Source of the DNA: a virus
Direction: 5' to 3' (one strand)
IMG/VR virus record: IMGVR_UViG_3300022745_000096
Span: 1 to 37,592 of that record
DNA length: 37,592 nt
Shown here piece after piece: positions 4,909 through 34,053 of the stretch. The translations under genes and the position numbers were made by a program. Positions within the stretch are counted from its first letter, which is position 1. Every line of letters begins with the position of its first letter. The notes under the pieces are model-generated. The model did not search any database. It saw only the letters and a program-made list of their open reading frames with translations, and was not told the origin of the DNA.

Positions 4909-5550
4909 ATGAATGACCAAACCAAGATCTCGGTGAAGGGCATTTACCACGCCCTAGCAGCCGCACAGATGGAAATGGGGCCTGCGTTGAAAGACAGCAC
5001 AAACCCCGCTTTCAAGTCGAAATATGCCGACCTCGCAAGCGTCATGGCCGCATGTATGCCTGCGTTGAACAAGCACGGCATTTGCGTGTTGCAGCCGATC
5101 TGCGACGAAGACGGCAAGCGGTACGTCAAGACGATCCTCGCCCATGAGGCGGGCGATATGGTCGAATGCCGCGTTGAGTTGATCGTCGGCAAGAATGACA
5201 TGCAGGGCTATGGCTCAGCCGTCACCTATGCCCGCCGCTATGGCCTGATGGCGATGGCTGGCATTGCCACCGAGGATGACGACGGCAACGCGGCGGCGAA
5301 GGCTGCGCCTGTCGTGGATGAACGGGCCGCATTTGAAGCGGAAGTCACCCAAGCCATCCGCGCCATTGGCCGAGAAAAGACGTTGAAGGGCCTTGGCGAG
5401 TTTTGGGCTGACTTTTCCCGCAACCACCGCGACGTGGCCACGGATGCCCGCGTGATGAAGGCCAAGGAAGACCGCAAGGTTGCGTTGAATCCTGCCCCCG
5501 CCGTTCCCCATGCCGCTGCCGATCTTGGCGGCGATGCCATCCCCTACTAG
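4909..5550 (+). CDS. erf: ERF-family single-strand annealing protein
   Basis: 213 residues from ATG 4909 behind CGGAG. The family core is clear: ALKDSTNPAFKSKYADLASV near the start, then a GYGSAVTYARRYGLMAMAGI element near residues 105-125, as in P22 Erf and relatives. These proteins form rings on single-stranded DNA and anneal complementary strands, and in P22-like phages circularise the genome after injection. The last residues, GGDAIPY, resemble the acidic/aromatic C-terminal tip of SSB proteins. It heads a recombination cluster with a coiled-coil protein and SSB. Confidence 0.92.
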   Translation: MNDQTKISVKGIYHALAAAQMEMGPALKDSTNPAFKSKYADLASVMAACMPALNKHGICVLQPICDEDGKRYVKTILAHEAGDMVECRVELIVGKNDMQGYGSAVTYARRYGLMAMAGIATEDDDGNAAAKAAPVVDERAAFEAEVTQAIRAIGREKTLKGLGEFWADFSRNHRDVATDARVMKAKEDRKVALNPAPAVPHAAADLGGDAIPY

Positions 5551-5560
5551 GAGCCGAAAA

Positions 5561-5995
5561 ATGGAAGAGTGGCGCACCGTCCCATCATGGCCAGATATCT
5601 CGGCCTCAAGTCTTGGGAGAGTATTGCTGAGCCCATGCAGCGCAAAAATGCCATCTGGGTATATTCGTGAGTATCAGCCCAAACCCACTTTTGGCGTTGA
5701 GGAAAAGACTGCAACTGGACGCAAAGATTCGGCTCGCCGTCGTATCATTCGCGTTGGCAGACTTTGCAAAACATTCAAGGTTCATCGGCTTGTTTGCGAA
5801 GCATTTCACGGCCTCGCACCGTCTGAGGATCATATCGTCCTGCACATTGACGAAGACCCATCTAACAACAGGCCGGAAAATTTGCGTTGGGGAACGCGCA
5901 AAGAAAACCAGAATTTCCCAAAAGTGATTGCTGCATTCAGAAACAGGTCCGGGGCGAATAGCGCTTGGGCAATTCACAAATCAAATCAAAGGTGA
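5561..5995 (+). CDS. HNH homing endonuclease-like protein
   Basis: 144 residues from ATG 5561, behind AGGAG. The N-terminus (EEWRTVPSWPDISASSLGRV) fits a NUMOD4 module. The C-terminal half fits the HNH_3 type: FKVHRLVCEAFHG, then VLHIDEDPSNNRPENLRWGT and KENQ. Base composition is visibly more AT-rich than the flanking genes, which suggests recent insertion between erf and the coiled-coil gene without disrupting either. Confidence 0.85.
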   Translation: MEEWRTVPSWPDISASSLGRVLLSPCSAKMPSGYIREYQPKPTFGVEEKTATGRKDSARRRIIRVGRLCKTFKVHRLVCEAFHGLAPSEDHIVLHIDEDPSNNRPENLRWGTRKENQNFPKVIAAFRNRSGANSAWAIHKSNQR

Positions 5996-5999
5996 CCCC

Positions 6000-6689
6000 A
6001 TGAACCAACTTGCCCCGATGGGCCACAATCTTCCCAAGTCCCCGATGGAAGAGGCCGTTGCACCGTTCGATGATTTCCTGATCGAGGCGGGCAACTGGCT
6101 AGACGGAAAGCGCGTCACGAACGAGGCCGAAATGAAGGCCGTGGATGCGCTGATCAAGGGCCTGAAATCCGCCCGCAAGGCGGTTGATGATGCCCGCGAT
6201 GCTGCGACGAAACCGCTGCATGAGGCATGGAAAGCCGAAGTTGCGGCATGGAAGCCGACACAGGACGATCTTGACCTGCAAGTCAAAGGACTTGTCGCGC
6301 TGGTTGACGGTTTCAAGCGGCAACTGGCAGCGGAGAAGGAAGCCGCCCGCAAGGCCGCATGGGAAGCCGCAGAAGACGCACGGCGTGAGGCAGAGGCCAA
6401 GATGGCGCTGGCAGACGTTGCCAACATTGAAGCGCAACGTGAGGCCAAGGCGGCGATGGAATCCGCAGAGATTGCCCGCGCTCAGGCTGCGGTGGCGCAG
6501 AAGGATACCGTCAAGGGTATGCGTACCGTCACGCGGTATGAAATCACCGATCATCGCGCCCTGCTCAACTGGATTGCCAAGAATGCCCGCGATGACGTGA
6601 CGGCATTCATCGAGGCATGGGCTCAGAAGAACCACAAAACCACAACCGCCGATGGACTGAAGGTCTGGCAGGAAAAGGAAGCATTCTGA
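6000..6689 (+). CDS. Coiled-coil protein of the recombination cluster
   Basis: 229 residues from ATG 6000, preceded by AAAGGTG. Most of the middle (~residues 60-175) is a charged, Ala/Glu/Lys-rich coiled coil (AAEKEAARKAAWEAAEDARR). The end is globular (a TVTRYEITDHRALLNWIAKN stretch). Proteins of this type sit between Erf or RecT and SSB genes in many phages. A role in recombination or exonuclease inhibition (Gam-like) is possible but not shown. Confidence 0.65.
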   Translation: MNQLAPMGHNLPKSPMEEAVAPFDDFLIEAGNWLDGKRVTNEAEMKAVDALIKGLKSARKAVDDARDAATKPLHEAWKAEVAAWKPTQDDLDLQVKGLVALVDGFKRQLAAEKEAARKAAWEAAEDARREAEAKMALADVANIEAQREAKAAMESAEIARAQAAVAQKDTVKGMRTVTRYEITDHRALLNWIAKNARDDVTAFIEAWAQKNHKTTTADGLKVWQEKEAF

Positions 6690-8449: not shown

Positions 8450-8844
8450 AGCGCGAATACTTCCACTTCAATGACCTTGAGGAATATCACAACGGCATGT
8501 GGCGCATTGTCGGAGGATTGGCAAAGGCACGAAACGCTTTGAATGCCGCAGAACTGATGCGGGATAGCGCCAAGTTTGAAGGTGCCATGATGCGGGCTTT
8601 GGAGGAATGGCCGAACTCTTGCCGCCATAACTTGACCGCAGAAGATACAAACCGCCTTGCGTGGCTTGGTCATGCTGGGTGCTGCATTGCGGTTGGATCG
8701 CCGGAAGAAAACACGCGGACAGGCTGGCATTTGCTGAAAACGGCAGAGCAAGATGAGGCCAATGCAACAGCGCAGCGCGTTCTTGACGCCTGGATTGACG
8801 CAAATTCAGAAACCCCGCCGCTCCTGAAAATCATGGGTCTGTGA
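8446..8844 (+). CDS. Hypothetical protein between ibrB and ibrA
   Basis: 132 residues from ATG 8446 (ATGA overlap), ending with a TGATG overlap to the next gene. Mostly helical (start MKREYFHFNDLEEYHNGMWR), with a central WPNSCRHNLTAEDTNRLAWL stretch. No domain is recognised. Tight coupling on both sides suggests that it works with the ParB-like and PAPS-reductase-like proteins. Confidence 0.65.
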   Translation: MKREYFHFNDLEEYHNGMWRIVGGLAKARNALNAAELMRDSAKFEGAMMRALEEWPNSCRHNLTAEDTNRLAWLGHAGCCIAVGSPEENTRTGWHLLKTAEQDEANATAQRVLDAWIDANSETPPLLKIMGL

Positions 8845-10073
8845 TGCTGAAAAAACCTTTAGGAATGAATGTACACACAGCGGCAATCCAGCGGATTGAG
8901 CAGACGTTTGCTGACTTTGAAAGTGTCTATCTTAGCTTTAGCGCAGGGAAAGATAGCACAGTCATGCTTCATCTTGCGGCTGATGTTGCCCGCCGTATTG
9001 GCCGCAGGTTTGGCGTCCTGCTGATCGATCTGGAAGGCCAATATAACCTCACGATATCTCACGCCAAAGCTTGCGTTGAGATGTATCGCGATGTGATCGA
9101 TCTCTATTGGCTGTGTCTTCCTCTGCAACTCAGGAACGGCGTTTCTGTGTATGAGCCTTACTGGAAGTGCTGGGATAAGGACAAAAAAGACATTTGGATT
9201 AGAGATATGCCTGAATGGGCAATCTCTGACGAAATCTTCTTCCCGTTCTTCACAGATGGTATGGAATTTGAAGAATTTGTTCCGTTGTTCGGTGAGTGGT
9301 ACGGAAATGGAAAGACAACAGCTTGCATGGTTGGAATCCGCGCCGATGAAAGCCTAAACCGCTTTCGGACGATTGCTAGCGACAAAAAGAGCATGTGGAA
9401 AGGGCATAAGTGGACAACGCAAGTCACTGACCATTGCTTCAACATTTATCCTATCTATGATTGGAAAATCTCTGACATTTGGCACTTCCATGCCGCTTTT
9501 CCTGATAAGCCTCATAATCCTCTTTATGACATGATGCACAAGGCAGGGGTGGCGCTCGGGAACATGCGGATTTGCGAGCCATATGGGGATGACCAACGCA
9601 GGGGGTTATGGTTGTTTCATATCATTGAACCGGAAACGTGGTCAAAGGTTGTGGCCCGCGTAAATGGCGCGTCATCGGGTGCGCTGTATGTTCAAGAATT
9701 GGGAAACATCAACGGATACCGGGGCATTACCAAGCCTGCCGGGCATACTTGGAAATCATTTGCCGAGTTGTTGACGCTTTCCATGCCGAAGAAGACGAAA
9801 GAGCATTTCCAGAATAAAATCATGCTCTACCAGCGTTGGTTTTTGGTTCGCGGCTATCCTGATGGCATCCCGGATGAAGCCCCGTATGAGTTGGAGCAAG
9901 CCGGGAAAGCCCCTTCATGGCGGCGCGTATGTAAAACGCTCTTGCGCAATGACTATTGGTGCAAAGGCCTCGGATTTTCTCAACAGAAAAGCACGGGATA
10001 CACAAAATACATGGAACTCATGCGGCGCAGAAAATCGGAATGGGGCGTATCGGAAGGGCAGTTATCACTATGA
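8844..10073 (+). CDS. ibrA: PAPS reductase/sulfotransferase-family protein, IbrA-like
   Basis: 409 residues from ATG 8844, coupled by TGATG. A PP-loop ATP-pyrophosphatase motif, SFSAGKDST, is at 31-39. It is followed by ADESLNRFR and by a long C-terminal part (GYRGITKPAGHTWKSFAELL, then FLVRGYPDGIPDEAPYELEQ) like the DUF3440 region of IbrA. PP-loop enzymes adenylate a substrate; relatives include DndC (DNA phosphorothioation) and sulfate-assimilation reductases. The substrate here is unknown. Codon use is more AT-rich than in the structural genes, a sign of separate ancestry. Confidence 0.85.
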   Translation: MLKKPLGMNVHTAAIQRIEQTFADFESVYLSFSAGKDSTVMLHLAADVARRIGRRFGVLLIDLEGQYNLTISHAKACVEMYRDVIDLYWLCLPLQLRNGVSVYEPYWKCWDKDKKDIWIRDMPEWAISDEIFFPFFTDGMEFEEFVPLFGEWYGNGKTTACMVGIRADESLNRFRTIASDKKSMWKGHKWTTQVTDHCFNIYPIYDWKISDIWHFHAAFPDKPHNPLYDMMHKAGVALGNMRICEPYGDDQRRGLWLFHIIEPETWSKVVARVNGASSGALYVQELGNINGYRGITKPAGHTWKSFAELLTLSMPKKTKEHFQNKIMLYQRWFLVRGYPDGIPDEAPYELEQAGKAPSWRRVCKTLLRNDYWCKGLGFSQQKSTGYTKYMELMRRRKSEWGVSEGQLSL

Positions 10074-11823: not shown

Positions 11824-12097
11824 ACTTCGGCAGGAGTTTGTCATCGCCCTCGACGGCATTCCGAATTGGGCCACGCAACGCGCCTTTGACCAGTGGGTCA
11901 GGGATGAAAAGCGCCGCCCCTCGCCTGGTGACATCGTGACGCTTGCCCGCAAGCATCTGCGCCCGATCTATGAGGAACTGGCCCGCCGTGAAAAGCGCAC
12001 CGAAGAGCCGAACCGGGAGCGTGTGACGCCGGAAGCCGCTGCGGCGATTTTGCAGGCGGCAGGCTTTGCCCCGAAGCGCATGGGGGTCGCAGAATGA
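11645..12097 (+). CDS. Hypothetical protein, possible replication partner
   Basis: 150 residues from ATG 11645. The first ~45 residues are low complexity and overlap the upstream gene by 179 nt. From ~45 on it is well ordered (YFDPGLDPATKAELRQEFVI, WATQRAFDQWVRDEKRRPSP, GDIVTLARKHLRPIYEELAR). The pattern with PSPGDI resembles small phage proteins encoded after DUF1376-type replication genes. No name can be given. Confidence 0.6.
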   Translation: MSNSAQLSTTSQAVSVTELPASTLATAIRSPSDQGEILRRTNSVLSLYFDPGLDPATKAELRQEFVIALDGIPNWATQRAFDQWVRDEKRRPSPGDIVTLARKHLRPIYEELARREKRTEEPNRERVTPEAAAAILQAAGFAPKRMGVAE

Positions 12098-12294
12098 ACA
12101 GCGCATCTCAAGTCTCGAAGGTTCTCAAGCTGCACTTCAAGCATGGCTACAGCTACGGCGTCATCGGCCTGCGTCTTGGCATGACCCGCAGCCGTGTGGC
12201 TGGCTTGATCCATCGGCACCGCGCCGAACAGATCGCCCCGCGCAATCCCGGCGGGTCTGATGTGGGCAACAAGACCGTGTGGGCCGCGCAATGA
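12094..12294 (+). CDS. Small GcrA-like HTH protein
   Basis: 66 residues from ATG 12094 (ATGA overlap). A basic helix-turn-helix (YSYGVIGLRLGMTRSRVAGL followed by IHRHR) resembles the DNA-binding part of the alphaproteobacterial cell-cycle regulator GcrA (I..LG.TRNAVIGK.HR). The rest of GcrA is absent. Probably a DNA-binding regulator; the GcrA link is an inference from the motif. Confidence 0.55.
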   Translation: MNSASQVSKVLKLHFKHGYSYGVIGLRLGMTRSRVAGLIHRHRAEQIAPRNPGGSDVGNKTVWAAQ

Positions 12295-13455: not shown

Positions 13456-13619
13456 GTGAGCAAAAACTGTGTCACGCAAAAATGGCGTGCGGTGATCGAA
13501 AATCATCAAACAATCATGACAAATGGTTTTGCTGGAAGTGCCAATGGACAGGGTGGGTGACGAAAAGCACAAAAATCGTTGACGCCTGCATGGCAAACCA
13601 AGCGGGGAAGCGCCCATGA
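13452..13619 (+). CDS. Small Cys-rich protein
   Basis: 55 residues from ATG 13452 (ATGA overlap). Cysteines at 7, 13, 27 and 30 (CHAKMAC and CWKC) could bind zinc. DNA here is more AT-rich than its neighbours. The 3' end overlaps the start of the NusG-like gene. Confidence 0.5.
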   Translation: MSEQKLCHAKMACGDRKSSNNHDKWFCWKCQWTGWVTKSTKIVDACMANQAGKRP

Positions 13620-14146
13620 CCCATCTCCGCATCCTCGCCACCGCCTCGCCGTCCGAAGTCTTCGCCGTATGCGATGCCATCAACGACCTGGGTGGGCTTG
13701 CCGTCGCGCCACGTAAGGTCGAACTGGTGCGCCTGCCAAAACAGCGCCGCCCGCAGATCGTGGAAAGCCCGTTCCTCGGGGCCTACTTCTTCGCCAGCCT
13801 ATCCGCAAACGACTGGCACGCTACGAAAGCCGATTACCGCACCGTCCAGGAGATTGGCCCGACTGAATGGCGGCATGTGCAAGCGTTCTGCGCCCGTGTG
13901 GAGCAAGACTACCAAATGCGCATGGGCCAATACGAGGCGGGCAGGCGGTTGGAGGAATACAACCCCGGTGACGCGCTGCAACTGCTAGGCGGGCTGTTTG
14001 CCGATCACTTGGCGACATTCCAGCGGCTTGACGAAAGCGGCCCCGTTCCGATGATCAAGGCAACCGTGCAAGGGGTGGAACTGCTAGGCCGTCCGGTTGA
14101 AGTGACGGTTGATCCGATCAACGCGAAAAGGTGGGCGGCGGAATGA
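13616..14146 (+). CDS. NusG-like transcription antitermination protein
   Basis: 176 residues from ATG 13616 (ATGA overlap). The N-terminal ~100 residues fit an NGN-type fold (MTHLRILATASPSEVFAVCD, with ESPFLGAYFFASL as the conserved strand). The C-terminal part starts with YNPGDALQLLGGLFADHLAT, matching the KOW-type F.PGD.V....GPFAG pattern, and ends in strands (VELLGRPVEVTVDP). NusG paralogues bind RNA polymerase and change pausing and termination. Placed just ahead of the late promoter and a leader terminator, it is a good candidate for the late-gene regulator, replacing Q. The family assignment rests on motif pattern only. Confidence 0.7.
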   Translation: MTHLRILATASPSEVFAVCDAINDLGGLAVAPRKVELVRLPKQRRPQIVESPFLGAYFFASLSANDWHATKADYRTVQEIGPTEWRHVQAFCARVEQDYQMRMGQYEAGRRLEEYNPGDALQLLGGLFADHLATFQRLDESGPVPMIKATVQGVELLGRPVEVTVDPINAKRWAAE

Positions 14147-14319
14147 CACAGCTATTCACAATCGTCAGCATAGGCCAGCCCATGCAAGACCTGTCCGAAG
14201 AAATGGCCGACCAGATCAAGGATGTGATCTATGACTACGCGGGCCGCGTGCCTTTGACGCTGGCAATGGGCGTTATGGAAGTGGTCAAGTATGAAATCAT
14301 GCGGGATGCGGAGGAATAG
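14143..14319 (+). CDS. Hypothetical protein
   Basis: 58 residues from ATG 14143 (ATGA overlap; start MTQLFTIVSIGQPMQDLSEE). Largely helical and acidic. Last gene of the rightward early operon, coupled to the NusG-like gene, which may point to shared use. Function unknown. Confidence 0.55.
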   Translation: MTQLFTIVSIGQPMQDLSEEMADQIKDVIYDYAGRVPLTLAMGVMEVVKYEIMRDAEE

Positions 14320-14329
14320 CCCCGCACAC

Positions 14330-14358
14330 TTGCAAAATCGCAAGATGTGGTATATGGT
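14330..14358 (+). promoter_or_regulatory. Putative late promoter
   Basis: TTGCAA (14330-14335) and TATGGT (14353-14358) are spaced by 17 nt in the 197-bp gap before terS. It would produce a leader of about 150 nt holding a terminator hairpin before the first late gene. Confidence 0.5.
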
Positions 14359-14453
14359 CGGCGTTAGGTGCTGCTTTGCAGGCTCTGCCGCTGGCGGTCT
14401 TGGTTCTAATGAGGACCGTCAAGCCCGAAATGTCCCCAACGCAAACAACGATA

Positions 14454-14474
14454 GGCCCCCAAGCGGGGTCTTTT
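14454..14474 (+). terminator. Leader terminator ahead of the late operon
   Basis: GGCCCC (14454-14459) pairs with GGGGTC (14465-14470), one G-T pair, 5-nt loop, followed by TTTT. It sits between the putative late promoter and terS, the place of the lambda tR' site that Q overrides. Confidence 0.6.
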
Positions 14475-14516
14475 CGCATAGGAGCGGCGACCAGACGTGT
14501 CGCCCCGGAGTGCGCT

Positions 14517-14942
14517 ATGGCCGAGTTTAGCGCGGAACTGTTTGACCGTATCTGTGAGCGCATTGCCGATGGGGAAAGCCTGCGGGCTATTTGCGCCGAT
14601 GAAGACATGCCTAGCACGACAGCCGTGAAGAAATGGCTGATCAAGGATGATGGCGGCGCACTTGTTGCCCAGTACGCGCGTGCGCGGGAAGCACAAGCAG
14701 ACGCCCTTTTTGATGAAGTGCTGGACATCGCAGACGACGCAACACGTGACCGCAAGTCAGCAGGCAAAGGCGACGGTTCGATGACGTTCGACGCTGAACA
14801 TGTGAACCGCGCCCGCCTTCGGATTGATACGCGCAAGTGGATGGCGGGGAAACTTCGCCCCAAGGTCTACGGCGACAAGGTGGATGTGAGCGGGAATGTT
14901 GGATTTACCGTTACCATCGCAGGAGACGACGCGGACCTTTGA
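14517..14942 (+). CDS. terS: Terminase small subunit
   Basis: 141 residues from ATG 14517, with GGAG six bases upstream. The N-terminal helix-turn-helix (FDRICERIADGESLRAICAD, then EDMPSTTAVKKWL) and the QYARAREAQADALFDEVLDI segment are typical of small terminase subunits that recognise DNA and present it to TerL. The end overlaps the TerL start by 47 nt. Confidence 0.85.
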   Translation: MAEFSAELFDRICERIADGESLRAICADEDMPSTTAVKKWLIKDDGGALVAQYARAREAQADALFDEVLDIADDATRDRKSAGKGDGSMTFDAEHVNRARLRIDTRKWMAGKLRPKVYGDKVDVSGNVGFTVTIAGDDADL

Positions 14943-34020: not shown

Positions 34021-34053
34021 GCCCGTCCGGTTCTTGCCGGGCGGGCTTTTTTT
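34021..34053 (+). terminator. Strong terminator of the late operon
   Basis: GCCCGTCCGG pairs with CCGGGCGGGC (10 bp, one G-T) around TTCTTG, followed by seven T. It closes the rightward late operon exactly where the convergent leftward operon ends. Confidence 0.92.

Follow-up and report, generated by a model that had tools for sequence, protein, structure and literature searches.

The window analysed here, the whole 37,592-nt stretch of viral DNA (IMG/VR record IMGVR_UViG_3300022745_000096), carries at its early/late border a gene for a NusG-like protein of 176 aa (13616–14146, + strand). The initial annotation rightly called it the last but one early gene, since an ORF ending at 14319 separates it from the leader. 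This ORF of 58–62 aa (58 aa at 14143–14319, + strand) overlaps the stop of the NusG-like gene, has a weak match to PHROG_3546, of unknown function, and is kept beside the NusG-like gene in L001 (IMG/VR 3300022744_000071), the only close relative of the window. On the same strand there follow a late promoter candidate (14330–14358), a leader hairpin (14390–14424), a 29-nt spacer (14425–14453), an intrinsic terminator (14454–14474) and terS, the Sf6-type small terminase gene and first late gene (14517–14942), which starts at ATG 14517 with a GGAG upstream at 14507–14510. The terS, terL and portal genes were identified by Pfam and PHROGs, and beyond them PHROGs recognised genes for head, tail and endolysin; the late region stays on one strand and extends to about 33.95 kb, which gives a late operon of ∼19.5 kb, and a strong terminator stands at its end (34021–34046, + strand, −23.2 kcal/mol, T7 run). 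The late-leader layout read earlier from the letters (NusG-like gene, promoter candidate, leader terminator, terS) is thus well supported, and the comparative evidence given below ties the gene more closely to the leader. Elsewhere, the left early region contains a strong terminator-like hairpin on the − strand (2786–2810, −15.3 kcal/mol), and the early region also encodes, at 8841–10073, a protein of 410 aa that has PAPS-reductase and DUF3440 domains and is of the kind annotated as IbrA-like.

The HMM search with the NGN family, which the initial annotation had proposed as a check, failed: the protein lies below threshold for every Pfam and NCBIfam NusG model (PF02357 included), and a search of the window with PF02357 and phrog_6386 gave no match above threshold. 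PHROG_6386, ‘transcription antiterminator’, reached only E 0.08 and, like PHROG_23142, matched weakly at the C-terminal barrel, and tblastn with the protein against phages and plasmids gave no match. Due to this failure of the Pfam and NCBIfam models, kinship had to be judged from fold and profile comparison. The top phmmer matches among 177,635 PDB sequences were seven NusG sequences, all weak (E 0.066–0.46), with alignments spanning residues 22–143, from the NGN into the KOW region; conversely, when E. coli NusG was used as the query against 12,958 ORFs from 164 phage loci, the copy in L001 was the sole pick (E 0.011). Profile–profile alignment (hhalign) of the protein with six housekeeping NusGs covered its full length (residues 3–172, E 1.3e-4), and after addition of one alphaproteobacterial RfaH-like protein reached probability 95.9 and E 5.7e-9, whereas five column-shuffled control queries gave P 0.15–0.86. 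A profile of the window and L001 proteins, run against 385 alphaproteobacterial genomes, found one stop-free match longer than 65 residues, an RfaH-like protein (E 9.6e-4) whose gene adjoins a polysaccharide gene. The same profile alone retrieved no NusG from eight host genomes; a three-row alignment did retrieve host NusG, but since the clear NusG of G022 is part of this alignment, the result is not independent.

Structure prediction against NusG and RfaH, also named beforehand as a check, gave a clear answer. All 29 PDB chains matched by Foldseek at E ≤ 0.001 with the AlphaFold model (six alignment rows, modest pLDDT of 65.7; an earlier three-row model was poor, pLDDT 54) are NusG, RfaH, LoaP or Spt5, with RfaH structures among the best matches and the NusG–RNA complex 8f5g, presumably that of LoaP bound to the dfn hairpin, also included; matches in the viral library include phage proteins annotated as RfaH and NusG. 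In the N-terminal half (NGN-like, about residues 2–103) the elements run E-H-E-E-E-E-H-E-H, which is the NGN order, and are closest to the NGN domains of RfaH, NusG and Spt5; one of these best matches is 8pen (Z 7.9, rmsd 3.0, 92 aligned), where a VIA-align Z below 8 is not decisive alone. The KOW-like barrel (about residues 115–174) includes the KOW-like segment YNPGDALQLLGG (residues 115–126) and has five strands at 120–172, on which Foldseek aligned the NusG C-terminal domain 2mi6 at 2.5 Å (TMt 0.70); the C-terminal rows of VIA-align were dominated by PsaE barrels, and this method alone cannot tell so small a barrel from the SH3-like PsaE. Fold search and full-length profile alignment together bear out the earlier reading of a NusG-like protein, and its membership of the NusG family is almost certain. 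We regard it as a very diverged phage-borne copy of NusG and file it only as a member of the NusG superfamily.

The leader hairpin with T-run that had been noticed at 14454–14474 is present as GGCCCC-CAAGC-GGGGTC-TTTT (in the RNA GGCCCC-CAAGC-GGGGUC-UUUU, −9.3 kcal/mol), with a z of −3.3 and a fold better than that of 199/200 shuffles. A strict terminator scan of the whole + strand of the window gave three sites, including this one and 34021–34046, against 1.7 expected in shuffles; the count alone is not beyond chance, and the case for the leader terminator therefore rests on its position and conservation. The initial annotation had missed a second structure, the 35-nt hairpin GCUGGCGGUCUUGGUUCUAAUGAGGACCGUCAAGC at 14390–14424, which has 14 bp with one bulge and one internal mismatch (z −3.2, with 1 of 200 shuffles as stable), is longer than the terminator stem-loop, is the best-conserved part of the leader and is the single site of its kind within the window. 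Its apical loop, closed by GU/AU, reads UCUA in the window and CCUA in L001, and we consider it a putative recruitment site. The spacer that joins it to the terminator is identical in L001 and possibly serves as a pause or contact site. Rfam gave no match, and neither did blastn of the leader DNA against phages. An ATG at 14409, within the hairpin, opens a reading frame (14409–14516) that in the window runs into terS in the same phase, whereas in L001 it closes after 23 codons.

Whether the leader exceeds chance is decided by the comparison with L001. The two NusG-like proteins are 93% identical and 17 of 80 fourfold sites of their genes are changed, while the conserved leader core (14387–14459, + strand), which holds the 14-bp hairpin and the spacer, differs at 1 of 73 nt, and this sole change falls in the hairpin loop (binomial about 6e-7 for the two rates, by our own arithmetic). 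In the terminator of L001 the loop and one closing pair are altered, and the remaining stem and the T-run are kept. The first ∼65 nt of the leader carry about one change per six sites, near the fourfold rate; because this less conserved flank shares an aligned block with the core, recent transfer of the leader alone cannot explain the conservation of the core. Since the frame from ATG 14409 shows no synonymous change in the core, the alignment indicates that constraint acts at the nucleotide level. In L001 two further small genes, one of them HTH, separate the NusG-like gene from the leader, and the genes downstream of the leader are unrelated to those of the window: a 244-aa PLD-like ORF precedes a terS unlike that of the window (the small genes and the PLD-like ORF lie at L001:4695–5137 and 5338–6222). 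These gene orders speak for mosaic exchange around both the NusG-like gene and the leader, yet both have been kept. A pattern search of viral contigs for the leader returned only the window and L001, and two leaders are too few for stem covariation.

Diverged NusG-like genes also lie 0.3–2.2 kb upstream of the terminase in unrelated phages of Sinorhizobium, Bradyrhizobium, Rhizobium, Microcystis and Nostoc, and most of these pairs have a terminator in between. Iterated profiles over 253 loci found NusG-like ORFs in prophages of Shinella, Acuticoccus, Rhizobium, Sinorhizobium and Methylorubrum at 0.9–2.2 kb upstream of terL, measured from the end of the ORF to the start of the terL match, a distance that is biased because the loci, which span 10 kb on both sides, were gathered around terL; no significant NusG-like match lay downstream of terL in these 253 loci. 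Less biased are the cases reached with NusG-type rather than terminase queries, namely L265, yong2, phiLM21, phi3LM21, Nsp-JY10, ppBjS10J-1 and RHph_N28_2. In L265 the terminase downstream belongs to a different class, in the record of Microcystis phage yong2 NusG is the last gene and terS the first, the terminase of ppBjS10J-1 was recognised by PHROG, and for RHph_N28_2 the sole candidate was a DUF2280 gene that may be terS. In phiLM21/phi3LM21, RHph_N28_2, yong2 and Nsp-JY10 the NusG-like gene ends the replication region and shares its strand with terS/terL, which follow downstream, as in the window; these proteins have diverged beyond the reach of tblastn with the window protein, the leaders are unrelated in sequence, and several of these phages have other genes between NusG and terS. 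A terminator separates the NusG-like gene from terS in yong2 (−22.1), L265 (−26.9), phi3LM21 (−14.7), Nsp-JY10 (−13.4) and phiLM21, and no clear one was found there in G022/L166, L182, L184, L185 and L186; shuffled regions yield 0–3.4 terminators each. Terminators are common at phage early/late borders whatever the regulator, so those in the other phages would be expected without antitermination too and are supportive only. Matches by tblastn in ‘Salmonella’, ‘Acinetobacter’ and ‘Staphylococcus’ phage records, apparently host chromosome or unannotated, were left unused. In the Rhizobiales prophages L175, L184 and L185 (7–8.4 kb) the NusG-like proteins keep the NGN and have a much altered C-terminal region, and those of L175 and L185 apparently lack a normal KOW segment. 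A phage NusG paralogue had been expected to be an uncommon solution; the gene is indeed there, but its position just upstream of the terminase is a recurrent arrangement in several unrelated phage groups, some with genes annotated as NusG-like antiterminators, and not a singularity.

Among known systems, the closest experimentally studied layout is that of LoaP, in which a NusG paralogue binds a hairpin in a leader that also has a pause site and an intrinsic terminator before the first gene, and in which deletion of the hairpin abolishes read-through (PMC12691694). In both cases a NusG-family gene adjoins its long target operon, and the leader has an RNA hairpin, a spacer and an intrinsic terminator in this order; the LoaP targets are polyketide genes, whereas the putative target in the window is a phage late operon. 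LoaP reads a hairpin loop of the UNCG type, and with UCUA or CCUA in the leader loop the window protein is not LoaP itself. RfaH of Escherichia coli and the plasmid-borne ActX/pRfaH share the fold of a specialised NusG paralogue. The RfaH target is the ops element GGCGGTAGnnT, of which the window leader has GGCGGTCTTGGT only, and the + strand of the window holds 26 copies of the GGCGGT shared with ops, of which the leaders of the other phages show no excess over expectation; by this test the window protein is not RfaH. Moreover, the C-terminal domain of RfaH is an autoinhibiting, all-helical hairpin, whereas the model of the window protein has a β barrel there, at low confidence (pLDDT about 60–70). 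In lambda, Q, pR′ and tR′ control the late operon, and the window has the same succession of last early region, late promoter candidate, leader terminator and late operon, with the NusG-like protein in the same place and apparently the same job. To our knowledge lambda Q is not a NusG homologue, and antiterminator Q families gave no HMM match to the NusG-like protein and the other early proteins scanned, a test that a diverged Q could escape. In the gene transfer agent of Caulobacter crescentus, GafZ controls the late cluster, which is alphaproteobacterial and phage-like, by antitermination; it does so together with host NusA, NusG and NusE (PMC11150451), whereas the window phage has a NusG paralogue of its own.

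Because the window has the element order of LoaP, and because operon-specific NusG paralogues such as loaP, taA and upxY are often encoded beside their targets (PMC7819879), we propose the following mechanism. The paralogue would be made from the 13616 gene alongside the early genes, and the leader RNA would arise from the promoter candidate or by read-through from the early operon. The leader would carry the 14390–14424 hairpin, and the terminator would halt RNA polymerase before terS unless the paralogue were recruited to the elongating polymerase via the hairpin and/or the conserved spacer, as LoaP is by the dfn leader hairpin. It would then stay on the polymerase via its NGN domain, so that the polymerase passes the terminator and transcribes the late operon, and paralogue and leader would functionally replace Q/pR′/tR′ of lambda. 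Promoter activity, hairpin binding, antitermination and timing are what we infer here, and such recruitment with read-through at 14474 is probably the late switch of this phage; transcription may start at 14365, in the manner of Q, or may arrive from the early operon, in the manner of N.

This last point concerns the first alternative, in which the late genes have no promoter of their own: early transcription would continue across the NusG-like gene and the leader, and the protein, having joined the polymerase at the hairpin of the early transcript, would take that polymerase through the terminator into the late genes. The promoter candidate, TTGCAA (14330–14335) and TATGGT (14353–14358) at 17 bp, exists as had been described, but it has only 8/12 consensus bases and is absent from a mechanical scan of the window at 9/12, and its flanks diverge near the fourfold rate while the hairpin–spacer–terminator core does not. 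Against this, L001 has both hexamers unchanged at an equal distance and differs only within the spacer (5/17), and the 15 nt directly after the expected start are identical, as would suit an active promoter; we therefore consider N-type read-through rather unlikely, though it is the alternative that survives best. Less likely still is a general role for the protein, as an elongation or anti-Rho factor in competition with host NusG on every phage transcript, with the leader belonging to another regulator. NusG family proteins do generally bind RNA polymerase, and the 66-aa HTH protein encoded at 12094–12294, with sub-threshold similarity to sigma-70 region 4 (E 2.5e-4) and GcrA (3e-3), is a candidate activator of a late promoter; but L001 retains both gene and leader amid changed neighbours, such genes are recurrently placed next to the late operon, and this adjacency is typical of operon-specific paralogues (PMC7819879). 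Control of the terminator by translation of the ATG 14409 frame (MRTVKPEMSPTQTTIGP...), which is present in both leaders, is very improbable, since the conserved part, without synonymous change, includes 22 nt upstream of this ATG, no Shine–Dalgarno sequence is evident there, and terS homology and the GGAG site indicate a start at 14517.

Recruitment of the paralogue to the late leader is thus the reading that we prefer, and the known targets of specialised NusG paralogues are otherwise operons for capsules, pili, toxins and antibiotics; in the literature searched, with subscription papers outside its scope, no direct study of a phage-encoded NusG controlling late genes was found. More tentatively, and with somewhat less than even confidence, we suggest that these phages represent a distinct class of late switch, in which a phage NusG paralogue directly reads a leader hairpin as LoaP does and replaces Q, and which arose or spread among unrelated alphaproteobacterial and cyanobacterial phages, each with its own leader code. 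Phage NusG paralogues can escape Pfam and NCBIfam models, as the present one does. If the proposal is true, the gene and leader pair would be a compact antitermination cassette, it would explain a recurrent phage gene that is annotated but uncharacterised, and it would give phages a third way, besides N and Q, of turning an elongating polymerase to the late genes.
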